Positions 26,918 to 42,697 of a DNA stretch of 64,000 nucleotides are shown here, one piece after another. A program made the translations under genes and the position numbers. This DNA is from Paenibacillus massiliensis subsp. panacisoli DSM 21345 (lineage in GTDB: Bacteria; Bacillota; Bacilli; Paenibacillales; Paenibacillaceae), in assembly GCF_000426545.1 (NCBI RefSeq), contig NZ_KE384534.1, forward strand, positions 423,115 through 487,114. Direction: 5' to 3'. The notes beneath the pieces were generated by a model, which worked only from the letters and a program-made list of their open reading frames with translations, made no database searches and had not been told where the DNA came from. Within the stretch, counting starts at the first letter, position 1, and each line of letters opens with the position of its first letter.

Positions 26918-26996
26918 GTAACTGAATACCGCTTGGTAGGTATGGAGGAAGTGGCAAGGGTAGAAGAAGAGTATATATGGTGGAAGAGGTGTGTAC

Positions 26997-27695
26997 ATGC
27001 CCCCATTTATCGATGAGCAATTTCTTAGGATGATTCGGGAGGAAGAACAGCAGGAACAAAAACTGGCTCGAGAGAATCGACTTTCGATCCCGGAAGTAAC
27101 GAGGGCAGTTCTTGCTGGTGAACTGGAGCTTGAGGAGGAAAGCATTGAGTTTACCATAGCAGAAGTGATTCCAGGGCACATAAGCTTGCGTTTACCAAAG
27201 TCTTTTACCGAAATGCCAGAAGCTTATGTCAAAATCAAATACCCGTCAGAACGGCGCCCCAAGCTGATTTACACCAATGGTACCTTAACGGTTAATGTTA
27301 CGGTCAATCCTACGGACAATCGACTGTATGATGACGAAATGCAGGTCTATCAAACGGAATTGCTTAAGATGCTGAAACGCATGCAACCGAATGCCTCTTG
27401 GTTATCCGACGGAGTATCTGAACTTCGCGAAGTTGAAACGAAAGCGCATCTCTCTCAGGAGCAGTCTGAGATGACGGAACAGAAGAGAAAGAAAAGTATG
27501 GGCTATTATGAATTTGTCTCCCCAGCAATGGACGGCAATATGTATAACTTAACTTTCTTTATGTCTTGGGAAGAAAAAGGGCTTTTTTTAGGGGTGAATT
27601 GCATGGAGAAAGAAATGCAGTTATGGCGTCCGATCGCTCACGGCATCATGTCATCCTTGCAGGTGATAGGCCCAGAACATATAGAGGAGGGATAA
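26997..27695 (+). CDS. DcrB/Eag-like protein, first gene of the Rhs island
   Basis: A 232-residue soluble protein. After an acidic helical N-terminus (to about residue 40), residues 45-140 (FTIAEVIPGHISLRLPKSF ... VNVTVNPTDNRLYDDEMQVY) and 160-230 (ending LWRPIAHGIMSSLQVI) have the beta-rich pattern and terminal W...SL helix of DcrB/DUF1795 proteins. In type VI systems DUF1795 (Eag) proteins are chaperones that load Rhs effectors onto VgrG. The assignment is inferred from pattern and position only. ATG 26997 is 7 bases after GAGG; the next gene starts 3 bp downstream. Confidence 0.55.
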   Translation: MPPFIDEQFLRMIREEEQQEQKLARENRLSIPEVTRAVLAGELELEEESIEFTIAEVIPGHISLRLPKSFTEMPEAYVKIKYPSERRPKLIYTNGTLTVNVTVNPTDNRLYDDEMQVYQTELLKMLKRMQPNASWLSDGVSELREVETKAHLSQEQSEMTEQKRKKSMGYYEFVSPAMDGNMYNLTFFMSWEEKGLFLGVNCMEKEMQLWRPIAHGIMSSLQVIGPEHIEEG

Positions 27696-27698
27696 AGT

Positions 27699-29195
27699 AT
27701 GGAACAGGCGTTGAATTCGTACATTGTGATCGAGCCGTTTGAACTGGAGCGGTTGCAGGAGTTGAAGATCGACAAGAGAATGAACGAGCATGTAAAGCTG
27801 ACATTTAAAGGGATCGTTCCTGAGAGCCGCAAAGACAGTTATGTGCAAATGGCCGATGCGCAGACAGAGATTGTGGCCAAAGAAGTCGATGAGCAAGGCA
27901 AGAAGGTGACGCTGTTCCACGGCATGATTCTGGATGTAGAAATACAAATGGTGCAAGGGGTCTATTTCATATCTGTGGAAGCTGTGTCAAACACCTACAA
28001 ATTGGACTTACAGCCAGTGGATCGCTCTTTTCAGCAAATTGGTCTGGCCTATCGGTCATTGATGAATCAAGTCATCAGTACGTACCCCCATGCGGACTTG
28101 ATTGATTACGCTTCCAATGAATCTTCGCTGGAAAGTATGATTCTACAATATCAGGAAACGGATTGGCAGCTACTCAAACGGTTGGCTTCGCATTTTCATA
28201 CAGGAATTGTTCCCACTGCCATGGATGAGCGGATTTTGTGTTATGCAGGTCTACCGCAGCTTGGAAGCAAGGGCAGATTGACCGTGCACAATTACCGCGT
28301 TCAAAAAAGAATGGACCTATATCAGCAGGCATTGCGCGCCCGTATTCCGAATGTGCTGGAGCATGATTTTGTGTTCTATGAGGTGGAGTCACGGCAGGTA
28401 CTGGATATCGGACATGAGGTGGAATTTAATGGGAAAAATTTGCTTGTGAGCCAGAGTGTATTGCTTCTGGAGCAAGGGGTCATTAAACGGAGATATACGT
28501 TGGCCAGAGCAGGTGGCTTAGTGATTCCGAAGCAGTATAACATAACGATCGTTGGCGCTTCGGTGCAGGGGACAGTTCTAGCTGTAAGCAAGGATACTGT
28601 TAAGGTACATCTTAATATGGACACCAATCAGGAGGAAGGAACGGCTTGCTGGTTGCCATACTCTACGATTTACGCGACTGCAGATAATGCAGGATGGTAT
28701 TTCATGCCAGAGCAGGGGGACAATGTGCGGATTTATTTTCCGACGCATGAGGAGAAGGACGCCTTTGCCACCAGTTCAGTGGCGAAATCGGGAGGAGCAA
28801 GCGCAGGAGGAGCTTCGGGGAGCGGCACGGCATCGGGTTCTGGTGCAGGCGCGGGGGCTGGAGGGGCCAGCAGTGCAGCTGGTGCGAACGGAGGTGATCC
28901 GATGCAGGACCCAGAAGTCAAAACACTCAAGACGAAGAATGGAAAAATGATTGTGCTGGCGCCGGATTACGTTCTGATCTCTGGGGAAGGCGTCTCGATT
29001 CTGCTGGAGGATGAGAATGGAATCACGCTGACAAGCAGCAAGGATATTAAAGTAACCGCGACGGAAAATGTGATTCTGCAGTCGAAGAACATTACGCTTA
29101 CAGCAAGTGAGAAGGTGGAGATGAGCTGTAAGGACAGCTCGCTTGTAATTGAAAGCGATGTCGTACTAAAAGGTAGTCAGGTGCGAAACAACTAA
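27699..29195 (+). CDS. VgrG-like spike protein (stand-alone)
   Basis: The 498-residue protein matches the VgrG/Pvc8/phage gpD hub. Residues 90-340 contain the gp27-like region with SLMNQVISTYPHADL and the signature LQYQETDWQLLKRLASH, then an OB-fold-like segment (GTVLAVSKDTVKVHLNMD ... VRIYFP). A Gly/Ala/Ser-rich linker follows (about residues 362-402) and a short beta-repeat tail (ENGITLTSSKDIKVTATENV) like the needle of spike proteins. There is no signal peptide. It is a paralogue of the N-terminal part of the giant Rhs protein downstream. No sheath or baseplate genes accompany it in the window. Confidence 0.82.
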   Translation: MEQALNSYIVIEPFELERLQELKIDKRMNEHVKLTFKGIVPESRKDSYVQMADAQTEIVAKEVDEQGKKVTLFHGMILDVEIQMVQGVYFISVEAVSNTYKLDLQPVDRSFQQIGLAYRSLMNQVISTYPHADLIDYASNESSLESMILQYQETDWQLLKRLASHFHTGIVPTAMDERILCYAGLPQLGSKGRLTVHNYRVQKRMDLYQQALRARIPNVLEHDFVFYEVESRQVLDIGHEVEFNGKNLLVSQSVLLLEQGVIKRRYTLARAGGLVIPKQYNITIVGASVQGTVLAVSKDTVKVHLNMDTNQEEGTACWLPYSTIYATADNAGWYFMPEQGDNVRIYFPTHEEKDAFATSSVAKSGGASAGGASGSGTASGSGAGAGAGGASSAAGANGGDPMQDPEVKTLKTKNGKMIVLAPDYVLISGEGVSILLEDENGITLTSSKDIKVTATENVILQSKNITLTASEKVEMSCKDSSLVIESDVVLKGSQVRNN

Positions 29196-29211
29196 GATAG
29201 AGGTGACGAGC

Positions 29212-30321
29212 TTGACGGAATCGGTAGAATGGGAGATTTCTCAACTGCAGGAAACGCTGCTGCTCAAAATCGATGAGTATTGGCGTAACGGAATGATGGA
29301 GTCGCATTCCGCTGAACTGATTGAAGCATTTCGTCGGCTTTGTCTGCGGATTAGTGAGCAGCAGGCAAGCGGGAAGAAAGCAGCGATTGCTTATATTCAT
29401 TTTTCTTATCTAAGGTCCTGGATAATGCAAGAGAAATTAATATACAGCCTGGAAGCTTATGATGACCGCTGGTACATTGATCGGAACGAATGTATGGAGC
29501 TGGTTGAACTGCCGCAGTTGAATACTTTTTTGCGGGGCTTCCAACAAGAGCTTCGTAAGAAACTGTTCAGAGTAGTGTCAGAGCTGGAGCAAGATGCAAT
29601 CTTGCTTCGGGAGATCACTGTTCTTCATCAATATGTGAAGGAGTGGATTCGGCGGATTGTGCCGCAGTTGATAGCTCTACCGGAGTTTCGATTGCTAGAA
29701 CGAACAGACGTGCTCAGATTGCTAACTGGGGAGTATAAGGACTTTAGCGAACAGATTTGGGTGGAAGACGGAGTGGAGAAGGATTCAGAATCCCTGAAGC
29801 GATGGCTGGAACAAAAATTACCTAATGTCTACATGAATAGTGATTTTCGTGGGCTAAATTTGAGCGGAGGGCATTACGAGGAAATCGATTTGCGCTACAG
29901 CCATTGCACTGGGAGCAATTTCCGAGATTCAAGTTTGCAAGGGAGCGTCTGTATCGGAACTGATTTTAGCTGCAGTATCTTGAGTGGGGCCGATCTAAGT
30001 CAAAGTTTGCTGTATGATGCTGATTTTAGCGGGAGCGATCTGCGTGGTGCCCGATTGACGGAAGCCGTTGGTAGCGAGCGGTTTATCCACGAGAGAATGG
30101 TGCTGGGTTTTGGTGGCGTCCGCTTTAATAACGCTAATCTGGAAGGAGCCAATCTATTATATGCCGATTTAGCTGGGGCTGATTTCCGTGGAGCAAATCT
30201 ATCCAAAGCTATGATCATGCAAAAGGATGCCTTAAATTGGCGACTTAGTGAGGAGCAGAAGAGTAGCGCCGTCTGGATGGTAGAAGACGACAATGGTGCT
30301 CTCGTACCAGCTAAAGATTAA
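29212..30321 (+). CDS. Pentapeptide-repeat protein of the Rhs island
   Basis: This 369-residue protein has a helical N-terminal domain (1-200) of no family I recognise and C-terminal pentapeptide repeats (about 205-345). The repeats, such as SDFRGLNLSGGHYEEIDL and NLEGANLLYADLAGADF, fit the A(D/N)LXX pattern and predict a right-handed beta helix. Pentapeptide proteins occur beside VgrG genes in type VI clusters as adaptors or spike extensions; that role here is inferred. The TTG at 29212 is favoured because AGAGGTGA lies 5-7 bases upstream; a GTG at 29203 overlaps that site. Confidence 0.75.
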   Translation: MTESVEWEISQLQETLLLKIDEYWRNGMMESHSAELIEAFRRLCLRISEQQASGKKAAIAYIHFSYLRSWIMQEKLIYSLEAYDDRWYIDRNECMELVELPQLNTFLRGFQQELRKKLFRVVSELEQDAILLREITVLHQYVKEWIRRIVPQLIALPEFRLLERTDVLRLLTGEYKDFSEQIWVEDGVEKDSESLKRWLEQKLPNVYMNSDFRGLNLSGGHYEEIDLRYSHCTGSNFRDSSLQGSVCIGTDFSCSILSGADLSQSLLYDADFSGSDLRGARLTEAVGSERFIHERMVLGFGGVRFNNANLEGANLLYADLAGADFRGANLSKAMIMQKDALNWRLSEEQKSSAVWMVEDDNGALVPAKD

Positions 30322-30338
30322 GAAGGGAAGCAGTTGCT

Positions 30339-30824
30339 ATGCATTATTTTGTACTGGAGCAGGATGAACGGAGCAAGCCGTCGTTAGTCATTAACGCCAG
30401 CGCTAACGATGTGCTGGAAGGAAGCAGCTTGTACGTCCGAGAGGAATTGGAGGTTGTATTTATCGATTTTGTCGAGGAACCGCAGCCAATAGTATCCAAT
30501 CGGATGAAGCAACTATTGGAATTGTATGAATCCAGATTGGCTTGGACGCCCGTTGTTTTGACAGCTAAAGAGGCCAAACGGCAGGAATTGTACTGGTATT
30601 TACAGCCGAGTGAACGGGAGGTGTTATCGGATAAAAGCAAGTGTGATCGACTCGGTAATGTGACCACGGTTGTGCTAGACGGTAATAGGCTTCAGCAGGA
30701 ACGGCTATTTTGCGCGGGAGGACGTATCATCATCCAATTGGACGTAGCTGAAAGCCTGCTGCGCAGGGCTTACACGGGAATGCGGTTGATACCGGTCGAA
30801 GTGGACCATCGATCTAGCAATTAA
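30339..30824 (+). CDS. Imm11/DUF1629-like protein
   Basis: A 161-residue protein whose layout (MHYFVLEQ..., then PIVSNRMKQLLELYESRLAWTPVVLTAKEA ... YWYLQPSE) resembles Imm11 (DUF1629) immunity proteins of polymorphic toxin systems. These have the same order of a beta start, an SxxMxxLLExY helix and a YWxLxP strand. It sits between the pentapeptide gene and the PAAR-like gene rather than after a toxin, so it may instead be a structural or chaperone part of the island. The family call is from pattern recall only. Confidence 0.5.
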   Translation: MHYFVLEQDERSKPSLVINASANDVLEGSSLYVREELEVVFIDFVEEPQPIVSNRMKQLLELYESRLAWTPVVLTAKEAKRQELYWYLQPSEREVLSDKSKCDRLGNVTTVVLDGNRLQQERLFCAGGRIIIQLDVAESLLRRAYTGMRLIPVEVDHRSSN

Positions 30825-30845
30825 GGAGCTGAAGGAGGCTAAATG

Positions 30846-31226
30846 ATGGTATCTGCAAAAAGAGCAAACACTGTCGTTCAGGAAGGGGCTAGCGAGGAGT
30901 TCAGTTATGTGGTACGGGGAGCGATGCTACGCTGCGGGTGTGGTAGCTTCCCAAATATGCTGAATTTACCAACATGTCACGGTATGTATATAAAAGGCCA
31001 GCCGTTGATGAATGTGGCAGACAGTAAGGCTGGCGATAATATATCAACCTTCGGAGTATGCGTGGCACGAGACAAGCCGTGTGAGCCAGAGGTGAATATG
31101 GAGTGGGTGAACGGCAAGCCGGACCTCCTGGTCGAAGGTAAGCCCGCGCTCCTGAGCTGCTCTTACGTCAATTGTATTCATCATGAGAATGGGATTATTT
31201 ATGTGGAAGACGACGGTCAGAAATAA
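30846..31226 (+). CDS. DUF4280 PAAR-like protein
   Basis: The 126-residue protein has the DUF4280 signatures GAMLRCGCGSFPNMLNL, NISTFGVCVA and the final CSYVNCIHHENGIIY, with several Cys and His that may bind a metal. DUF4280 proteins are regarded as PAAR-like spike tips and are found next to VgrG-like and Rhs genes in Gram-positive bacteria. ATG 30846 is 7 bases after AAGGAGG. The next gene starts 17 bp downstream, so the tip and the Rhs protein should be made together. Confidence 0.85.
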   Translation: MVSAKRANTVVQEGASEEFSYVVRGAMLRCGCGSFPNMLNLPTCHGMYIKGQPLMNVADSKAGDNISTFGVCVARDKPCEPEVNMEWVNGKPDLLVEGKPALLSCSYVNCIHHENGIIYVEDDGQK

Positions 31227-31243
31227 TGGGAAGGAGGAGCGAA

Positions 31244-34200
31244 ATGCTGGATCAAAAAGAGCGAAAGCATGAGAGTCTGACGCTTCAGGATATTTACCTA
31301 AAATGGCCTTACGGCCAGATTCGACTTGAACGAATCAAGATCATTCGCCATCCGGGTAATCACGCGCAGTTACTACTGCGGGGGCTCCTTCCGAAACATA
31401 ATGGCGAGCAGATCGTCGAGCAGGCGAGCGGCGGTGATCAGGTCGGATTATGGGCATATGGTCTGGGCGAAGATCAGGACTATCCGCTGTTCCTCGGGCA
31501 GCTTCATCAGTTGGACCTCCATGAAGTACAAAATAATCAATATGTTGAACTGGTCGTGATCTCGTATACATATCAAATGGATATTGAGCGCAAGAGCCGG
31601 TCATTTCAGCAGCTGAATATGCGTTATTCTGAAATCATCGATGAAGTGTTATCGCCTTATCGGCACCATCTTCAGGAAAATGCATTTGATACATCTAGGC
31701 AAATTGGTAAGCTGCTGCTGCAGTACGAAGAGACGGATTGGGAGTTTCTTCAGCGGATCGCTTCCCACGCAGGGGCCGTGTTAACTCCGGACGTCGCCGG
31801 TCATGAAGCGCGGATCTGGATCGGAGCACCGGTCGGATCAAGACGCTGGAAGCTGCCGGAAGGGACAGCCTACCGGCTCGGGCGGAAAGTGGATTCTTTC
31901 TTGACCGCGATCGCGGGGCCTTATGAAAATCTGCAGGAGAGTTCTTTTACCCGTTGTGTGATTGGGCTGGAGCAGTTAATGCAGTTGGGCGATCAGGTGG
32001 AACTCGGCGGGGTTTGGTATACGGTAATGGGAATAGAAGCGGAACTTCAAAAGGGAATCATGGAGTTTGAATATTTGTGTGCCCTTCCGGAAGGGGTTAG
32101 GCAGAACCAAAAATACAATTCGAACCTGGTAGGGCTCGCAGTAGAAGGTAAGGTCATCGGGGTTAAGCCGAATATGGCTAAGGTACATTTAGATATCGAT
32201 CAGGAGCAGGATGAAGCGGGAGCTGTCTGGTTTCCTTATTCATCGCCATTCAGTCATTTGCTTCACACGATGCCCCAGGTCGGATCCAGGATAAAATTGT
32301 ATTTTCCGGGACAAGACGAAGACGAAGCAATGCTGATCAATTCCGTACGCACGCCTCTGTCTGCCGGGGAAGAAGCGGCTGACAAAGCCAATCAGAAAAT
32401 GGCTGATTCCACGGTAAAGTCGTTCACGACTAGCTATGGCAAAGATTTTGTATTGGGACAGCAGGACATTTCCTTTACGGCCAAGGAGGGCTCCTTGTTC
32501 CTGTCGATTCATGAAGACAAGGGGATTGAACTGCATAGTGAGCAGGATATCATCTGGATGGCACCAGAAGAGATTGATTTTAGCGGATTCAAACAGTTTC
32601 AGGCGATAGCTGACGAGGAGATCATCGTCGTCGGCAAGGGCGGCAGCATAATCATTAACGACAATGTGGAGACGTCTGGTGAGGTCATTGTTGCTGAAGG
32701 TCGGGATCGGCAGTCGTATGCGAAGCTGACCAATCCAGAAGCTGAGCAGGCGAAGATTGATAAAGAAAAGGAGGGGTTCTGGGATAAGATCCAGACAGGG
32801 CTTGACGTGCTTGGTATGCTTCCTGGGGTGGGTGCCGTATTTGACGTAATCAATGCGGGGATCAGCTTAGGACGAGGTGATTTTCTCGGAGCGGGACTAT
32901 CGCTTGTATGCATGATACCTGGGGTCGGGGATGCCTTCGGAGCTGCCCGTCTGGCTGGTAAAGCTGCCAAAAAGGTCGGCAAAGCTGTTATGAAGTACGG
33001 TGGGGAGAAAGTGCTGAAGCTAGGCAAAAGCCAATTGGACAAGGTGCTCACGGCTGCAAAGAAGGTCATGGGGCAGACCGACCTCATTCGGAAGCAACTT
33101 GCAGAGAAGCTGGCGAAAACGCAGGCCGAGCTGGCGGAGAGAACGGGCAAGCTATTGCAAGCGGCGGCGAAGAAAACGGGCGCGGATAAATTGATGTCAG
33201 CTTTCAATCGCAAGGTACTGGATAAATTTAATTGTACAAAAAAGCTTAAGGATAAATTCTGTAAATGGGGCTTTGAACCGGTTGAGCTCATTACTGGGTT
33301 GATGATGAGTCAAGCAACAGATTTTGAATTCCCGGGTCCGCTACCGTTGGTCTGGGAGCGTCGATGGATCAGTGACAGTCGTTTCAGGGGATGGCTTGGC
33401 CATGGTGTGCATCATTCGCTGGATATGCGCTTAACGGTCATGAATGAAGGGATTGGGGTACTGCTTGATGATGGCCGGGCTGCGGCGTTTGAATTATTGC
33501 ATCGTGGCCGCATGGAGACCTTTAACCGCTCCGAGCGGTTGACGCTGCGTCGAATGGGACTCAACTATGCGTTGTTCGAGCATGAGCGACGACTGACGTA
33601 TTATTTTGCACCTGTGATCGGGAGCGAGGATCGGGGGGAACTTGATTCGTTAACTGAGGCCTCCATGCCGTACCAGTTGGTGAGCGTGGAAAATGAGCTC
33701 GGCCAGCGTATTGAACTGCATTATGACGAGCAGGGCTATTTGCAGCAGGTCATCGACAGCGTGGGACGGATACTTGAGATTAGTACGGATGCTACGGGAC
33801 GAATTGCGAAAGTAACCCACGTGTATCGCACAAATCCAGATAGCCCGCTTAGCGAGCAACGTGAAGTACTGGTGCAGTACCAATATAACGAATCTGGTGA
33901 CTTGATTGCCGTTACGGATGCACTGGGACAGACTACTTCTATAGCCTATGAGCAGCATCTGATGATTGAGAAGAAAGATCGCCATGGGTATAGCTTCTAC
34001 TGGCGTTATGACGGTCCGACCACAGGAGCGCGCTGTGTACATACATGGGGCGAGGATGGACTGCTGGAAGGACACATTGCTTATTTCGACGGATACAACG
34101 AGGTGACGAACAGTCAGGGGCATACGACGACTTATGAATATACTCCTGAATTCTACTGCACGGCGATCACGAACCCGTTAGGCGATCGATACGAATATAC

Positions 34201-36862
34201 CTATAGTGATACGGCTGATTTACTGTGCGCAAAGGACGCTGAGGGGCGTACTACGCAGTACATGTATGACGAGTTAGGCGAACTCGTGCAGATCATTCAG
34301 CCAGATGGTAGCAGTTGGAACTACGCCTACAGCGAGCAGGGGCAATTAATGAAAGTGACCGATCCGGAAGGTGGGAGCGAGTCTTGGGAGTATGACAAGC
34401 GAGGGAGATTAAGCAAGACGATCCGTTCTGATGGAGCCACAGCGACGTTCATATATGATGAACACCAGCGGCTGTGTGAACTGATAAATCCGTTGGGTGC
34501 GGTGACGACACTGACTTATGACGATCATCACAATTTGACCCGGATGATGATGCCGGATGGATCGAGTGCAGAGTGGGCCTATAATCACCGGGGAGAATGC
34601 CTCGAAACAACGAGTCCGCTGGGTGCGAAGCAGTATTTTACCTATGATGCGCTGGGTCGAGTGGTCCGTGCTGAACTGCCAGATGGCAATGTCGTGAAGC
34701 TGAAGTATAATGCATACGAAGAAGTCATCGCCGCGGAGGATTCACAGCAGCGCGTTACATTCGGGTATAGCCCGCTTGGTCAAATGACTTGGCGTGAAGC
34801 TAAGGGCAGAAGAGTTGAGTTGGTATATAACAACGAGGAAGAGCTAACGACAGTCGTGAACGAGCATGGAGAACGGTATGTCCTGGAGCGCGATGAGAAC
34901 GGCCAAATCGTTCGGGAAACGGGGTTTGACGGCATTGTCAGACAATATGTGCGTAGCCCTGGAGGGTTACTGGAAAGGATGGAGCGTCCCGGTGGCCGCT
35001 GGACGTCGTTCAGCTACGATGAAATGGGCCGGGTGACACAAACAGCTTATAGTGATGGTCTGGCCGAAACGTTCAAGTACAACCGGATCGGGGAATTGCT
35101 GGAGACCACCAATCCCTTTGCGACGGTCAAGCTGGAGTATGATGGGGCGGGGCGTCTAATCAAGGAATGGCGGGACAAATATTTCGTCGCGAGTGGTTAT
35201 GATGAACTCGGTAATCGGCTGGAAGTAAGTAGTAGCTTGGGCGCACAGATTAAGATGGACCGGGATGTGCTGGGCCAGATTAGTCAGTTACAGGCCGAGC
35301 AAGTGTGGCAGGGGCAGGGTAAGGGCAGTAATGAAACATCTTCCACGGCATCTAACAAGCCATGGACTGCGCAAATGACCTACAACAAGCTGGGACAAGA
35401 GATTGAGAGACTACTTCCGGGTGGTGCAGTAAGTCAGTGGCAATATGATATCGTCGGAAGACCGGAACAGCACAGGGTGAACACTGGCGGTCGAGAAAGT
35501 CGGAAAAGAAGGTACAGCTGGGGTATGAATTACCGTCTGAAATCACTGACGAACGAATTGACAGACAAGACGATTCGCTTTAACTATGATGACTTCGGCA
35601 CTTTGGTCGGGGCAAGTAACGATTTCGGGAAGATCTTCCGTATGGCGGACGAAGTCGGGAACCTGTACAGCAGCGGCCAGCGTACGGACCGGAAATATGG
35701 TGAAGGCGGGCGCTTGCTCGAATTCGAGGAAGCGACGTACAGCTATGATGAGGAAGGCCAACTGATCGAAAAGCTGGAGAAGGACGGCAGTTGCTGGAGC
35801 TATGAGTACTACGGCAATGGCATGATGAGCAAGGTTGTACGTCCAGATGGTCAGGAAGTGCTATTCACCTATGACAGTCTAGGACGTCGAATTGAGAAGC
35901 ACTTCAACGGCGTAGTATACTGTTATATATGGGATGGGAACCAGATTTTGCATGAGTGGACAGCAGACAGCAAGCAAGACGAGCAAGATGGAATGCCTGA
36001 AGCTGGCTTAGCTGCACCTCAAGGAGCAGCAGAAAAATTCAGATCACTGCTGTCTCAACCTGCTGCAGGAGAACCAGACCCTGTAAAACTGACGACTTGG
36101 GTATTTGAAGACGGGACATTCCGTCCAGCCGCCAAAATTACGACCGATGGTACGTATAGCATCATCACTGATCACCTGGGCACACCGGTAGAAATGTACA
36201 ACGAACAAGGGGAACGCGTATGGGCTTGTGAGCTGGACATTTACGGTAACGTCCAATCTATTCATCTCCAGGGTAAACGATCTGATTGTCCGTTCCGTTA
36301 CCCAGGGCAGTATGAGGATGAGGAGACAGGTCTGTATTACAACCGTTTCCGCTACTACTCACCGCATGAGGGGATGTATACGCAGCAGGACCCAATAGGG
36401 CTTAATGGCGGTTTAGTGCTATACGGGTATGTAAGTGATCCGAATGCTTGGGCGGATCCGTTTGGTTGGATTAAAGCCCCTGCTTTACTGCCCAATAAAC
36501 CGGGAGTATACATTTTATCCAGTGAATCAGCCAAGCTTGCTTATGTAGGGAGTGGAGTTGATATGAACACTCGGGTATCACAATTAAAACATACGAAAGC
36601 ACAAAAGTTATTAGGTATGGCTGACGTTATAGTTGAATATGTAGAGGTTAACTTAGGTGATGCAAAAAAATGGCCTAACCAGAATCATATTCTTAGACAT
36701 TTTGAGCAGATTGAGTATGATAATTTAAGATTCAATGAGAATTATGACTATACAATGATGAACGATAACAGGCCAGAGGCGATAAAGAAAAAAGCAAAAA
36801 ACATGGCTGAAGTTAAAAAGTTCGGAGCATCATCAAATCCAAAAGTGAGGTGTAAAGGGTGA
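31244..36862 (+). CDS. VgrG-Rhs polymorphic toxin with C-terminal GIY-YIG nuclease
   Basis: This 1872-residue protein has, in order, a VgrG-like region (about 1-470, signature LQYEETDWEFLQRIASHAG), a hydrophobic Gly-rich segment (about 510-570, LGMLPGVGAVFDVINAG), a Lys-rich helical linker and an Rhs N-plug region (EPVELITG, about 670). YD/Rhs repeats follow (about 800-1640), then the Rhs core end (DHLGTPVEMYNEQG, YDPIG-type boundary near 1717-1742) and a 130-residue toxin. The toxin has GVYIL...AYVGSG, an Arg after it and a conserved Glu in RHFEQIEYDNL, fitting GIY-YIG nucleases. No signal peptide is seen. ATG 31244 is used because GGAAGGAGG lies within the longer frame from 31226. The toxin-coding end is more AT-rich than the core. 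An immunity gene overlaps the stop by 4 bp. Confidence 0.9.
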   Translation: MLDQKERKHESLTLQDIYLKWPYGQIRLERIKIIRHPGNHAQLLLRGLLPKHNGEQIVEQASGGDQVGLWAYGLGEDQDYPLFLGQLHQLDLHEVQNNQYVELVVISYTYQMDIERKSRSFQQLNMRYSEIIDEVLSPYRHHLQENAFDTSRQIGKLLLQYEETDWEFLQRIASHAGAVLTPDVAGHEARIWIGAPVGSRRWKLPEGTAYRLGRKVDSFLTAIAGPYENLQESSFTRCVIGLEQLMQLGDQVELGGVWYTVMGIEAELQKGIMEFEYLCALPEGVRQNQKYNSNLVGLAVEGKVIGVKPNMAKVHLDIDQEQDEAGAVWFPYSSPFSHLLHTMPQVGSRIKLYFPGQDEDEAMLINSVRTPLSAGEEAADKANQKMADSTVKSFTTSYGKDFVLGQQDISFTAKEGSLFLSIHEDKGIELHSEQDIIWMAPEEIDFSGFKQFQAIADEEIIVVGKGGSIIINDNVETSGEVIVAEGRDRQSYAKLTNPEAEQAKIDKEKEGFWDKIQTGLDVLGMLPGVGAVFDVINAGISLGRGDFLGAGLSLVCMIPGVGDAFGAARLAGKAAKKVGKAVMKYGGEKVLKLGKSQLDKVLTAAKKVMGQTDLIRKQLAEKLAKTQAELAERTGKLLQAAAKKTGADKLMSAFNRKVLDKFNCTKKLKDKFCKWGFEPVELITGLMMSQATDFEFPGPLPLVWERRWISDSRFRGWLGHGVHHSLDMRLTVMNEGIGVLLDDGRAAAFELLHRGRMETFNRSERLTLRRMGLNYALFEHERRLTYYFAPVIGSEDRGELDSLTEASMPYQLVSVENELGQRIELHYDEQGYLQQVIDSVGRILEISTDATGRIAKVTHVYRTNPDSPLSEQREVLVQYQYNESGDLIAVTDALGQTTSIAYEQHLMIEKKDRHGYSFYWRYDGPTTGARCVHTWGEDGLLEGHIAYFDGYNEVTNSQGHTTTYEYTPEFYCTAITNPLGDRYEYTYSDTADLLCAKDAEGRTTQYMYDELGELVQIIQPDGSSWNYAYSEQGQLMKVTDPEGGSESWEYDKRGRLSKTIRSDGATATFIYDEHQRLCELINPLGAVTTLTYDDHHNLTRMMMPDGSSAEWAYNHRGECLETTSPLGAKQYFTYDALGRVVRAELPDGNVVKLKYNAYEEVIAAEDSQQRVTFGYSPLGQMTWREAKGRRVELVYNNEEELTTVVNEHGERYVLERDENGQIVRETGFDGIVRQYVRSPGGLLERMERPGGRWTSFSYDEMGRVTQTAYSDGLAETFKYNRIGELLETTNPFATVKLEYDGAGRLIKEWRDKYFVASGYDELGNRLEVSSSLGAQIKMDRDVLGQISQLQAEQVWQGQGKGSNETSSTASNKPWTAQMTYNKLGQEIERLLPGGAVSQWQYDIVGRPEQHRVNTGGRESRKRRYSWGMNYRLKSLTNELTDKTIRFNYDDFGTLVGASNDFGKIFRMADEVGNLYSSGQRTDRKYGEGGRLLEFEEATYSYDEEGQLIEKLEKDGSCWSYEYYGNGMMSKVVRPDGQEVLFTYDSLGRRIEKHFNGVVYCYIWDGNQILHEWTADSKQDEQDGMPEAGLAAPQGAAEKFRSLLSQPAAGEPDPVKLTTWVFEDGTFRPAAKITTDGTYSIITDHLGTPVEMYNEQGERVWACELDIYGNVQSIHLQGKRSDCPFRYPGQYEDEETGLYYNRFRYYSPHEGMYTQQDPIGLNGGLVLYGYVSDPNAWADPFGWIKAPALLPNKPGVYILSSESAKLAYVGSGVDMNTRVSQLKHTKAQKLLGMADVIVEYVEVNLGDAKKWPNQNHILRHFEQIEYDNLRFNENYDYTMMNDNRPEAIKKKAKNMAEVKKFGASSNPKVRCKG
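35648..36400 (+). repeat. Rhs core segment duplicated at 39305-39917
   Basis: This 753-bp stretch of the Rhs core is nearly identical to 39305-39917, apart from two internal deletions in the downstream copy (77 bp and a net 63 bp). Identity stops abruptly after the DPIG codons at the toxin boundary. Confidence 0.92.
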
Positions 36863-37749
36863 GTGTTGATTACATGGATATAAGAAAACGTTACTTGCGT
36901 CCAGAAGGAATAACAGTAGTAGTAGGGGAAGAGAAGAAGCAAGAAGATAAAATTATCTATATAACGAAGGATGAGTTATATAGACTAGTAGATGAACTAA
37001 CTCCTTCTAAAATTGTAATAGATAAGGGAATAGGCCTAGAAAGTAAGGAATTGCTCAATATTATTTCAACTAAAAAATCACTAAAATTTATTCGCATGCC
37101 TAATGACTACTTACCTTTGACAAATTTACCTTCTGATGATGTAAATGCACTGTGGATCAATCCATTTTGTGACAAAGAACTATTTAACGGATACCAAGAA
37201 TATAGTTGGGATTTAGAACACGTAATGCCGAATGTAGAGTTCTTTAGTTTTATGGATGGTGACGGAAGGTACGATTTAGCTGGAGTTACATCGAAAGCAT
37301 TTCCGAATCTGAAGTGGATCGAATGTATGCTGGATAAAAAGGGAAGGACGTTGGAAACGCTCCAAAATTTTTCTAACCTATCTTCTGTCTACCTGCATGA
37401 GGTTTGGAATCATCGGATATTTTCAGCCCTAAAAGAACATCAGATAAAGAGATTTAGGTTAGAGGGGTTTACACGTGGATTTTCATTCGAAGATATTACG
37501 AATTTCACAGAGGTAGAGGTGTTAAAGGTCAACGGATATCGTGAGCATTTTGATATGCAATTGTTAGCTAAGCTTCCGATTAAAGAGATTAGCTTTATTA
37601 GTTGTATTCGAATGGAGCACGTTGATGTCCTATTGCAGATTCCTACTTTAGAAAGATTAACCATAATAGATTGTAAAAAGCCACTAACCCAAGAAATGAA
37701 AGAGGTTCTTAAAGAAAAATTATTAGTGGCTGATGTGGACTTCCAGTAA
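36859..37749 (+). CDS. Probable immunity protein with leucine-rich-like repeats
   Basis: A 296-residue soluble protein whose GTG start overlaps the toxin stop (GTGA). The middle and C-terminal parts show irregular leucine-rich repeats (for example FPNLKWIECMLD, LQNFSNLSSVYLHEV, FTEVEVLKVNGY, IPTLERLTIIDC). Position directly after the GIY-YIG toxin and tight coupling are the main reasons to call it the cognate immunity protein. Base composition is AT-rich like the toxin end, which fits transfer as a toxin-immunity unit. Confidence 0.65.
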   Translation: MSVDYMDIRKRYLRPEGITVVVGEEKKQEDKIIYITKDELYRLVDELTPSKIVIDKGIGLESKELLNIISTKKSLKFIRMPNDYLPLTNLPSDDVNALWINPFCDKELFNGYQEYSWDLEHVMPNVEFFSFMDGDGRYDLAGVTSKAFPNLKWIECMLDKKGRTLETLQNFSNLSSVYLHEVWNHRIFSALKEHQIKRFRLEGFTRGFSFEDITNFTEVEVLKVNGYREHFDMQLLAKLPIKEISFISCIRMEHVDVLLQIPTLERLTIIDCKKPLTQEMKEVLKEKLLVADVDFQ

Positions 37750-37829
37750 TTTGCATGTAACATGCTCAGCTACCTTTGCTTTGGCTAATGAGTGTGAACT
37801 TGTTTTCAATCATATTGGAGGCTGGGATA

Positions 37830-38231
37830 TTGGAGAAATTGCTATGGGAAATAATTGAGGACTCAAAACAAAATAAAGCATTTTTGAAAAGTGAGGTTCA
37901 GTTCGAGACTCTTAAGAGGAGGTTATCCCAGTATGGGGAGCAGACAAATAAAGAGTTGATGGATGAGTTTCATAAATTGTGGGAAAAACTGAGGTTATCG
38001 GATGAGTTTGAAAGGCTTCATGAAGAAGAGGGCGGCATAATCAGTGACGATTGGAGCTATGAGCAGTTCTATATGGATTTTGGAAGCTGGATTGTTGCGC
38101 AAGGGAAAGATCTGTATTATATGTTTTTTAGAGAAGGTCACGAAGCGGTTCTTTCCTACATTGAAGAGCGTGGTGTTACGGAAGAAGACTATATGTTTGA
38201 AAGTATGATGTACGCTTTTAAAGGTGATTAA
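37830..38231 (+). CDS. DUF4240-domain protein (immunity-like)
   Basis: The 133-residue protein fits DUF4240: LLWEIIEDSKQN start, helical middle, then SYEQFYMDFGSWIVAQGKDLYYMF and a final MMYAF helix. DUF4240 proteins are common in immunity arrays behind polymorphic toxins. The TTG start at 37830 is supported by GGAGG 8 bases upstream; the frame is open further upstream without a ribosome site. It ends at a terminator. Confidence 0.7.
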   Translation: MEKLLWEIIEDSKQNKAFLKSEVQFETLKRRLSQYGEQTNKELMDEFHKLWEKLRLSDEFERLHEEEGGIISDDWSYEQFYMDFGSWIVAQGKDLYYMFFREGHEAVLSYIEERGVTEEDYMFESMMYAFKGD

Positions 38232-39247: not shown

Positions 39248-39300
39248 AAAAGAGTAGCGTAAATCCTCGGAAAATGGATTGTACAGCTACTCTTTTCTTT
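39248..39300. terminator. Terminator before the displaced Rhs cassette
   Basis: AAAAGAGTAGC (39248-39258) pairs with GCTACTCTTTT (39286-39296), followed by CTTT on the plus strand and by A-rich DNA giving T on the minus strand. The duplicated Rhs core starts five bases downstream. The 38931-39247 stretch before it shows no supportable gene. Confidence 0.75.
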
Positions 39301-39304
39301 ATAA

Positions 39305-39917
39305 GACGAAGTCGGGAACCTGTACAGTAGTGGTCAGCGTACGGACCGGAAATATGGCGAAGGCGGGCGATTGCTCGAATTCGAGGAAGCAACGTACAGC
39401 TATGATGAGCAAGGTTGTACGTCCAGACGGTCAGGAAGTGCTATTCACCTATGACAGTCTAGGACGCGACCGGGCAGCAGCAGACAGCAAGCAAGACGAG
39501 CAAGATGGAATGCCTGAAGCTGGCTTAGCTGCACCTCAAGGAGCAGCGGAAAAATTCAGATCACTGCTGTCTCAAGCTGCTGCAGGAGAACCTGACTCTG
39601 CGAATCTGACGACTTGGGTATTTGAAGATAGGACATTCCGTCCAGCCGCCAAAATTACGACCGATGGTACGTATAGCATCATCACTGATCACCTGGGCAC
39701 ACCGGTAGAAATGTACAACGAACAAGGGGAACGCGTATGGGCTTGTGAGCTGGACATTTACGGTAACGTCCAATCTATTCATCTCCAGGGTAAACGATCT
39801 GATTGTCCGTTCCGTTACCCGGGGCAGTATGAGGATGAGGAGACAGGTCTGTATTACAACCGTTTCCGCTACTACTCACCGCATGAGGGGATGTATACGC
39901 AGCAAGACCCGATAGGG
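39305..39917 (+). repeat. Displaced copy of the Rhs core with two deletions
   Basis: This segment is nearly identical to 35648-36400. The first deletion (77 bp) ends in one copy of ATGATGA, which is present twice in the parent (35745 and 35822), the footprint of slippage between direct repeats. The second removes a net 63 bp near 39466. The 77-bp loss changes the reading frame, so the upstream part is out of register with the Rhs reading frame. Confidence 0.92.
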
Positions 39918-40367
39918 ATGGCGGGGAATAACCCTACGTTGTATGGGTATGTGAGTGATCCGAATCGAAATGTTGATGTATTCGGCCTATACTCTGATTT
40001 ATTAGATACTGGAATGGGGCATCATCTAATGCCAAGATCTATAGCGAAGGCACTAGGTATTTCTGAATTGAGTCAAATTAATTCAATTGCATGGTACCCG
40101 AACAAGGGAATTGGAACAGCAGATCTCCATAAACAATTGCATAGAAATCTTATTGATGCAGGTGTTCCATACCATGGTTCCAAATTTACGGGAACTGCTG
40201 ATGAATTTTTTAACAAAGCAATGAAGGCATATGCAGATATTGATGTTAAAGGATATATGAAAATTCCATTTACACATGAACATTTGTTTAAGAATTTAAC
40301 TCCTTCAGAAGCATTGGACAAGCTAAGAGAACTGAACACGCAAGGAACAATCCCTTGCAGTAAATAA
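39402..40367 (+). CDS. Orphan Rhs core and HNH-like toxin cassette
   Basis: From ATG 39402 the frame encodes 321 residues: a piece of Rhs core identical in most of its length to the main protein (MMSKVVRPDGQ, DHLGTPVEMYNEQG, DPIG boundary) and then a different 125-residue toxin domain. The toxin has GMGHHLMPRS, WYPNKGIG and a downstream H-x(3)-LH pattern (ADLHKQLHRN), which suggests an HNH/Endonuclease VII-like nuclease. There is no ribosome site, signal or N-terminal delivery part, so it is probably silent unless recombined into the main gene. Its immunity gene follows 15 bp downstream. Confidence 0.7.
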   Translation: MMSKVVRPDGQEVLFTYDSLGRDRAAADSKQDEQDGMPEAGLAAPQGAAEKFRSLLSQAAAGEPDSANLTTWVFEDRTFRPAAKITTDGTYSIITDHLGTPVEMYNEQGERVWACELDIYGNVQSIHLQGKRSDCPFRYPGQYEDEETGLYYNRFRYYSPHEGMYTQQDPIGMAGNNPTLYGYVSDPNRNVDVFGLYSDLLDTGMGHHLMPRSIAKALGISELSQINSIAWYPNKGIGTADLHKQLHRNLIDAGVPYHGSKFTGTADEFFNKAMKAYADIDVKGYMKIPFTHEHLFKNLTPSEALDKLRELNTQGTIPCSK

Positions 40368-41353: not shown

Positions 41354-42697
41354 ATGCAAATCACACCTACGATTCGGACAGAAATACAAGATTATTTGGA
41401 ACAGCACAAAATGAACATGAGTCAGTTTGCTGCCAAATCCGGACTCAACGCGGGTACAGTAAGTGGTATTGTAATGAGCAACCGTGCCATTTCTGTACAT
41501 CAACTGGATTGTGTTACACAGGCCATGGAGAAGCCAGAAGATTACTACTATACCCGATATGTTCAGGAATATATGCTGGAGGCATCTCTGGATTGGCGTA
41601 GAGTGAAGGCTTTTTTGCAACGCTGCACAGAATTGAACAGGCTCGATTGCATAGCTCAAGTTGTATCTGTTCTTATGGACAATGTGGCATATTATGTGCC
41701 ACTGGTCTTTGAGCTGGCTGAGGAGTTTTTTGATCAGAAGCTTTATAGGGCTGCAGAAATACTTTACGAGAACGTTGCCAGTGGCGAAAGAAATCAGCAT
41801 TCAGAACGTCTGGCCTTAAGCCAGTATAGATTGTTTACGATTCGTATTGGTGATGATCAATCTCTCAATCTCAGAGTTGCAACACTATTTGAGCCTTACG
41901 TGGAGCGTCTGGATGAAATTGATCAGTTGGATGCACTTAAGGATTTAGCCAACGTGTACAGATCGTTACATGAATGGGACAAAGTAAATGCTACGGCCAT
42001 CAAGCTGAATCGTTTGGCAGAAATTCAATATGCTTTGGAATCTGTCACCAAAGAGCCACTTCGACCCTTATTTTTTTATGTTGCGTATAGCAATTTGTTA
42101 ATGGGTGGCTTTTACCATGATCAAGGTAACTATGAATTGGCTCTAGAAAAAGCTAACCAGTATGCGAATCTGTCATGGGTACGAGAGACGGATGCTGATA
42201 CTCTGCACTGGAAGGCTCTGTTCGTAGAATGGGCAAGAGCGAATATTCTGCTAGCCAGGCTAATGTCAGGTGAGACGCAGCTATTATCAGATTATGTTGA
42301 GTTTATCGAGACCAAGGAAATTGAAGTTACTCGTGGCCTATGGAATATAATGATCGTGGCAAACCGTTTTAAAGTGGATGTAGATCAGATTATAACCAAA
42401 TACGAACAAGAGATCTCCAGTCTTTTGAAGCAGGATAAAAATGAAATATATAATCAGCAAAATACCGATGATCAACATATTGGCTTATTGTATGAACTGG
42501 CACACTACAGCTTAGTGCAAGAAAAATATGAAAAAGGCTATCTCCATTTGTTAAAAGGTTTGGAAAAGTCCACTATAATTAATAATGATAACTCTACTCT
42601 TCGATTTATGAGATTATTTGAACATTTCCGTGAATTTGCATCGGACGAAGCTAAGGTAGAGTATCACAATCTAGTCAGAATGGAGGCGACAGTATGA
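41354..42697 (+). CDS. RRNPP-type peptide-responsive regulator (AloR-like)
   Basis: A 447-residue protein with an N-terminal helix-turn-helix (residues 1-65, LEQHKMNMSQFAAKSGLNAG) and a long all-helical TPR-like domain (about 75-440, e.g. YRSLHEWDKVNATAIKLNRL, YHDQGNYELALEKANQYANL). This is the layout of RRNPP receptors that change DNA binding when they bind a secreted peptide. The gene overlaps the next one, a 32-residue export-type peptide, by ATGA. This closely matches the AloR-AloP pairs described in Paenibacillus polymyxa. A TATAAT sits at 41255-41260, without a clear -35. Confidence 0.82.
   Translation: MQITPTIRTEIQDYLEQHKMNMSQFAAKSGLNAGTVSGIVMSNRAISVHQLDCVTQAMEKPEDYYYTRYVQEYMLEASLDWRRVKAFLQRCTELNRLDCIAQVVSVLMDNVAYYVPLVFELAEEFFDQKLYRAAEILYENVASGERNQHSERLALSQYRLFTIRIGDDQSLNLRVATLFEPYVERLDEIDQLDALKDLANVYRSLHEWDKVNATAIKLNRLAEIQYALESVTKEPLRPLFFYVAYSNLLMGGFYHDQGNYELALEKANQYANLSWVRETDADTLHWKALFVEWARANILLARLMSGETQLLSDYVEFIETKEIEVTRGLWNIMIVANRFKVDVDQIITKYEQEISSLLKQDKNEIYNQQNTDDQHIGLLYELAHYSLVQEKYEKGYLHLLKGLEKSTIINNDNSTLRFMRLFEHFREFASDEAKVEYHNLVRMEATV

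Follow-up and report, generated by a model that had tools for sequence, protein, structure and literature searches.

The window analysed here is a 64,000-nucleotide stretch of contig C2 in a 6.33-Mb Paenibacillus assembly (G000), and its subject is a putative toxin operon in which six closely spaced plus-strand open reading frames (ORFs) span window positions 26991-36862, with intergenic gaps of 3, 7, 17, 18 and -1 bases. We consider it probable that this operon serves as a satellite spike-effector module for a type-VI-like contractile injection machine found in Bacillota, the core of that machine being encoded on another contig. The six genes of the operon are as follows.

26991..27695, + strand: p1, DcrB/DUF1795-like, probable effector-loading chaperone (family F4)
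27699..29195, + strand: p2, stand-alone VgrG spike
29203..30321, + strand: p3, pentapeptide-repeat protein (family F2; Pfam Pentapeptide, 81.7 bits)
30339..30824, + strand: p4, Imm11-like protein (family F3), recurrent module component
30843..31226, + strand: p5, DUF4280 PAAR-like tip (83.6 bits; Pfam cut-off 26.3)
31226..36862, + strand: p6, VgrG-Rhs protein of 1878 amino acids

A preliminary description, made from the sequence alone, had read this operon as two VgrG-like proteins, a DUF4280 tip, a pentapeptide protein and a VgrG-Rhs fusion, and the ORFs together with the Pfam searches bear this out; p4 was omitted. It had also stated that none of the proteins has a Sec signal, which agrees with a simple hydropathy scan that finds no hydrophobic stretch in any of the six. 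For p2, Pfam reports Phage_base_V at 28.2 bits (cut-off 23.8), with GPD and DUF2345 reaching sub-cut-off scores only; a profile built from 11 p2 relatives matches VgrG chains of type VI secretion systems (T6SS) in the PDB (8gra, E 6e-24) as well as Pvc8/Afp8, and the match of p2 to TIGR01646 (E 3e-9) lies under the cut-off of that model. The suggested Eag-like chaperone, p1, has no Pfam match, and the family profile compared with PDB structures gives moderate support to a DUF1795-like protein (DcrB 13cz, E 3.3e-4; DUF1795 6e8a, E 8.4e-4). A match of about 24 residues to designed SAKe proteins (7q58, E 5.8e-6) ranked ahead of DcrB and was judged to be due to chance. Paralogues of p1 adjoin VgrG genes at three other loci (L003, L006 and L007), p3 holds a conserved position within the spike modules compared across genomes, and a p4-type gene is found in most of these modules. 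Eight of 14 members of the p4 family match Pfam Imm11 (best E 4.8e-12), p4 itself reaching E 0.019.

The largest protein, p6, combines an N-terminal VgrG part (Phage_GPD 32.3 bits, cut-off 30.1) with DUF6531 and RHS repeats, the segment from DUF6531 to the Rhs core covering residues ~684-1747 and a possible GIY-YIG end following from ~1752. The nuclease end proposed in the preliminary description is weakly indicated, since the last ~125 residues are faintly GIY-YIG-like (Pfam E 0.06), and residues 1752-1799 match UvrC/Cho-type models far under their cut-offs (E 0.003-0.08). The Rhs repeats, the Rhs core end, the variable C-terminus, the small downstream genes and an orphan cassette are traits of polymorphic Rhs toxins, and p6 would act as a toxin.

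The same types of genes recur in G000, where Phage_base_V matches nine places (window included) and seven DUF4280 genes were counted. All six module families are present at L003, at L007, where the second VgrG gene, at the end of a contig, is divided between two frames that overlap, and at the core locus on contig C7. At L008, p1 is missing and a second VgrG lies downstream; DUF4280 and VgrG genes also occur at two contig ends, L004 and L005. A comparison of 20 stretches around DUF4280 or VgrG genes within the genus, taken from genomes other than G000, and of 20 more from different genera of the same family and class showed that some modules were preceded by further conserved genes, including one for an 880-residue protein with Hsp70-type motifs. 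By tracing these conserved genes upstream, the fuller core was reached. In G000 the machine is encoded once, on C7 from 188370 to ~213600, with the following components.

C7 188370-189275: kinase
C7 189882-191960, - strand: vWA protein, candidate membrane protein
C7 192465-194633: unsplit sheath-like protein, 722 residues
C7 194750-195175: TssD-like tube
C7 195284-195712: J protein (J-domain)
C7 195862-196404: FHA1
C7 ~196441-196965: FHA2
C7 196981-197841: PP2C
C7 197951-199498: PP2C-TPR
C7 199784-201235: F6
C7 201214-201921: F7
C7 201965-204607: F8, Hsp70-like ATPase
C7 205380-206258: F5, in the slot of the TssK-like protein in the core order
C7, ending at 213621: the core's own spike set of p1-like gene, VgrG, F2, p4-like gene, DUF4280 (210290-210649) and VgrG fusion

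The core DUF4280 and FHA2 genes overlap antisense ORFs and were located by a stop-to-stop scan. By the hydropathy scan, the vWA protein, FHA1 and the two PP2C proteins are candidate membrane proteins. The Hsp70-like ATPase and the J protein are present in the core, where no AAA+ ATPase was recognised; no Walker A motif occurs in the called ORFs of the two stretches L068 and L006, ClpV having been sought only there. A guess from length that F8 is a chromosomal housekeeping gene was dropped on account of its Hsp70-type motifs. Among 18 scanned core proteins, to which the search was confined, no Pfam match to TssJ, TssL or TssM was found, and F6 and F7, considered for the wedge roles of TssE, TssF and TssG, have no convincing Pfam or PDB profile match. 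Database names of core genes are misleading, the sheath being called a transcriptional regulator, the TssK-like protein a DNA and RNA helicase, and F6 a normocyte-binding protein. G000 is close to Paenibacillus massiliensis, with F6 98% and the sheath 100% identical.

Three core proteins link this locus to contractile machines. First, the 722-residue protein shows a contractile sheath fold in a predicted model of middling confidence. It is a single ORF in G000, and its homologues are similar in length, with no TssB and TssC split. The sheath was not identifiable by sequence alone in Pfam, NCBIfam, PADLOC, PHROGs or PDB profile searches and has no PF04984 match; profile matches to parvovirus NS1 in the PDB (E about 1e-3 to 5e-3) and weak Pfam matches to mCpol (E 0.19) and TssG (E 0.36) were judged to be due to chance. 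Second, 18 of 19 members of the tube family match TssD (best 1.6e-5), the tube protein of G000 itself staying under the curated cut-off; against Hcp1 in the PDB the tube reaches E 0.041 only, and a narrower profile gives no match. The gp19-type tube family PF06841 has no match in G000, nor did any positive control genome match it. Third, the predicted model of the TssK-like protein finds three chains of one TssK entry in the first ranks with Foldseek, and five TssK entries plus IglD at the top with VIA-align. This assignment is by fold only, and part of the fold is also present in phage receptor-binding and baseplate proteins, which reach equal Z scores; a PDB profile match of the protein to MsrA (E about 0.01) was judged to be due to chance.

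These folds also bear on a rival explanation, in which the core is a free particle like an extracellular contractile injection system (eCIS) or the contractile injection system (CIS) of Streptomyces, which would assemble in the cytoplasm and be released by lysis or act in its own cell. Like the sheaths of eCIS and phage tails, that of the core consists of a single chain, the top structural matches of its model are entries of Streptomyces CIS, Photorhabdus virulence cassettes (PVC) and phages, tied within 1 Z, and no known T6SS membrane complex is recognised in the cluster. However, the TssK-like protein, the TssD-like tube, the candidate membrane proteins and the kinase/PP2C/FHA set are reminiscent of T6SS. 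In addition, four eCIS-type genomes of the class show proteins of 1189-1894 amino acids near the sheath, and three of the four a Walker A protein of 720-747 amino acids, while the called ORFs of the core described here lack Walker A. We regard a free particle as rather unlikely.

The presence of DUF4280 is closely tied to the presence of the core. In the genus (75 genomes), DUF4280 occurs in 36 genomes; each of these also has the Hsp70-like core protein, which is absent from all 39 others (Fisher 3e-22). Among 398 genomes of the class, 46 have DUF4280 and 35 the new sheath, all 35 being DUF4280-positive, that is, 35/46 against 0/352 of the others (Fisher 6e-41). Because the genomes are related by descent, these p-values are indicative only, and more weight attaches to the all-or-none pattern seen from genus to genus. 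Within the genus, a p2 relative is found in each of the 36 genomes that have DUF4280, with 2 to 21 matches (not genes) per genome, and in one more, G003, the sole genome of the 75 that has it without DUF4280 and the Hsp70-like core gene. The preliminary description had left the choice between a distant contractile machine and a separate spike-only delivery system. Delivery by spikes without any contractile machine could account for the satellite loci, the window among them, that bear no recognised machine genes, but within the genus DUF4280 never occurs without the Hsp70-like core gene, and the lone VgrG relative of G003 (1/75) fits a remnant, which it perhaps is; we find this option scarcely credible. 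The distant machine is favoured, as another contig encodes a core with sheath-, tube- and TssK-like proteins, and this core co-occurs with DUF4280.

The absence of sheath genes noted in the preliminary description holds within the window, but elsewhere in G000 there are PF04984 matches on C15 and C8 in addition to the single new-type sheath on C7. The locus on C15 (L011) is a PBSX-like tail in which no capsid genes are visible, and that on C8 (L010) resembles a prophage and comprises more genes, the roles in both being read from gene order and length. With two such sheaths in the genome, the spike modules could ride on one of these tails, and within the genus every one of the 36 genomes with DUF4280 indeed has PF04984, against 33 of the 39 others (Fisher p 0.026). 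Such a near-universal sheath (69/75 genomes) discriminates poorly, however, whereas the Hsp70-like gene splits the genomes 36/36 against 0/39. Furthermore, of the 39 genomes with DUF4280 that lie outside the genus, three (G104, G161 and G192; one single-contig, two drafts) carry core and module despite having no PF04984 match, by which the PBSX-like tail was ruled out as the module carrier. The tail-carrier explanation is largely refuted and very improbable. According to the preliminary description, constant co-occurrence with a known phage-tail or extracellular contractile cluster supplying all the missing parts would refute its reading; a co-occurring cluster was found, but it is not a known one.

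In all 11 DUF4280 genomes of the class that lack the new sheath there is a PF04984 sheath as large as those of eCIS (565-616 amino acids as open frames), ~20-27 kb from DUF4280 on one contig in 10 and on a separate contig in G203. In stretches from five of the 11, profiles find no core gene except VgrG- and DUF4280-type genes, and two also match a tailocin-derived baseplate-J profile. Since 9 of 28 new-sheath class genomes outside the genus also bear an eCIS-size sheath, both systems can coexist. In the phylum (398 genomes), the new sheath was found in 14 genomes, four of the own family and ten outside the class, and all ten have DUF4280, nine above the cut-off. Two of these genomes (G750 and G655; sheath E 2e-27 and 1e-18) have a compact row of sheath, tube, VgrG, F6 or an F6-length gene, and F7. 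At the corresponding loci (L110 and L112), the row also includes F3 and a DUF4280-bearing protein of ~595 amino acids with an unassigned C-terminal part.

A scan of named genomes gave at least 360 sheath relatives. The best 80 loci, which were kept, are all from Bacillota by title (Paenibacillus, Brevibacillus, Cohnella, Aneurinibacillus, Lysinibacillus, Solibacillus, Clostridium, Tepidibacter, Acetivibrio and metagenome-assembled genomes), with more distant hosts possible beyond these. Gene counts were taken from the 64 of these loci that span at least 22 kb; they were chosen by their sheath, and the counts are at the low end as antisense ORFs can mask genes. The core genes were found as follows: sheath 64, PP2C 64, Hsp70-like 62, F6 60, kinase 59, tube 55, FHA1 55, F7 53, FHA2 52, J protein 48 and vWA 46. 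The core gene order is mostly preserved; F5 was found in 19/64 loci, F5 and the spike genes lying mostly past the stretch ends. No sheath relative was confirmed in viral contigs by pattern scan and tblastn (427 stretches), and the sheath has no match in phage records or plasmid records.

Further genes follow the operon in the window.

36859..37749, + strand: candidate immunity gene by position only, with a 4-base overlap with the p6 gene (296 residues, no confident Pfam family)
37776..38231, + strand: DUF4240 protein (29.2 bits, cut-off 27), possible further immunity gene
39279..40367, + strand: orphan Rhs C-terminal cassette (RHS 35.9 bits)

The orphan cassette is 77% identical to the Rhs tail of p6 over 232 amino acids but has a different end, which resembles the cassette swapping of polymorphic toxins. 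Positions 41354-42697 of the window and L003:2525-3952 encode paralogues, 43% identical, each adjoining a spike module; the L003 product reads as a helix-turn-helix protein with repeats, and the pair may be module regulators.

Among the sister modules, four loci (L008, L022, L025 and L035) have a variant with F2, F3, DUF4280 and a VgrG fusion, followed by the genes F13 and F14, which read as lipoprotein-like. F21 also follows in three of the four, and a second VgrG is present in L008, L025 and L035. At L018, L036 and L037 (G025, G061 and G060), VgrG-fusion genes adjoin one block of eight families (F26-F33), perhaps a mobile unit, and L036 and L037 have this block and the VgrG fusion but no other module gene.

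Gene content, the folds of the two predicted models and co-occurrence make up the computed evidence, and from these a working mechanism can be proposed for the satellite module and its machine. The chaperone p1 would load p6 into a VgrG trimer together with p2, p5 would cap the trimer, and the capped trimer would seat on the TssD-like tube encoded at the C7 locus. Contraction of the sheath would then expel spike and toxin across the wall and into an adjacent cell, and the immunity genes would shield the producer. A docked rather than free machine is suggested by the presence of signalling genes, candidate membrane proteins and a TssK-like protein; docking would be to the membrane, and assembled in this way, the machine would be anchored by the core membrane proteins and fire outward under the control of kinase, phosphatase and FHA proteins. 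Gene content and motif conservation also suggest that the Hsp70-like ATPase and the J protein might recycle the sheath in place of ClpV.

Spike-tip pairing as in this operon has been reported before. PMC8651086 (2021) describes PAAR_H2 (DUF4280) and Phage_GPD neighbourhoods of Firmicutes with no T6SS or eCIS genes within 20 genes, and the passages concerned do not identify a machine. Some Paenibacillus Tc toxins are called a type VI system in the relevant part of PMC12381145, which is different from the core here, and passages of PMC12923769 and PMC9230969 deal with eCIS fibres and phage sheaths. In the titles and abstract starts of the papers listed by searches of the PubMed Central (PMC) literature, taken without preprints and with few subscription papers, no T6SS of Gram-positive bacteria is described. 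Two points weigh against novelty, namely a table in PMC3482391 (2012) that counts firmicutes among T6SS and PVC lineages, and the phrase 'Gram-positive type VI', which occurs in two papers. Among the papers listed by searches of the PMC literature, taken without preprints and most subscription journals, none was found to describe this machine, which may have been described elsewhere. If our explanation is true, some thick-walled bacteria (Paenibacillus, Brevibacillus, Aneurinibacillus, Lysinibacillus and some Clostridia) possess their own version of the T6SS, which would explain how large spike-linked toxins leave such cells and would supply the machine for the 'unknown translocation system' suspected in 2021. 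A relative with an unsplit and possibly Hsp70-recycled sheath would also inform the evolution of T6SS from phage tails. The core genes have been masked by wrong database names, and culturable strains carry the core.

Compared with known systems, the machine has a combination of features of its own. PBSX-type tails and prophages of Paenibacillus differ from the core in sheath, hub and distribution, and no link to the modules was found. With eCIS (PVC, the antifeeding prophage Afp and Streptomyces CIS), the core shares the one-chain sheath, with structural scores equal to any, and DUF4280-type tips; eCIS loci of the same class, however, have PF04984 sheaths of 565-616 amino acids, tape-measure-size proteins and mostly AAA+-type ATPases, none of which is seen in the core. 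The T6SS is usually presented as a Gram-negative device. Its likeness to our system includes VgrG with C-terminal fusions, a PAAR-like tip, a DUF1795-like chaperone, satellite vgrG islands, a TssD-like tube, the sheath fold, a TssK-like protein, and kinase, PP2C and FHA genes in the cluster. TssD tubes are linked with Bacteroidota-type T6SS, and the kinase, PP2C and FHA genes parallel the T6SS threonine-phosphorylation pathway. In contrast, the host is monoderm, one 722-residue sheath chain stands in place of TssB and TssC, and the cluster has an Hsp70-like ATPase and a J protein with no AAA+ ClpV or TssJLM recognised. The system was not filed as a canonical T6SS because the cluster has neither a split sheath nor ClpV and its membrane complex is not recognised. 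We see about an even chance that it is a monoderm type VI secretion system of Bacillota, a type between eCIS and T6SS with an unsplit sheath, a TssD tube, a TssK adaptor, a new membrane anchor (vWA, FHA and PP2C), kinase/phosphatase/FHA gating, Hsp70/J recycling and many satellite VgrG-DUF4280-toxin modules. The machine would be T6SS-like in its working, and we class it among the contractile injection systems as a new variant.

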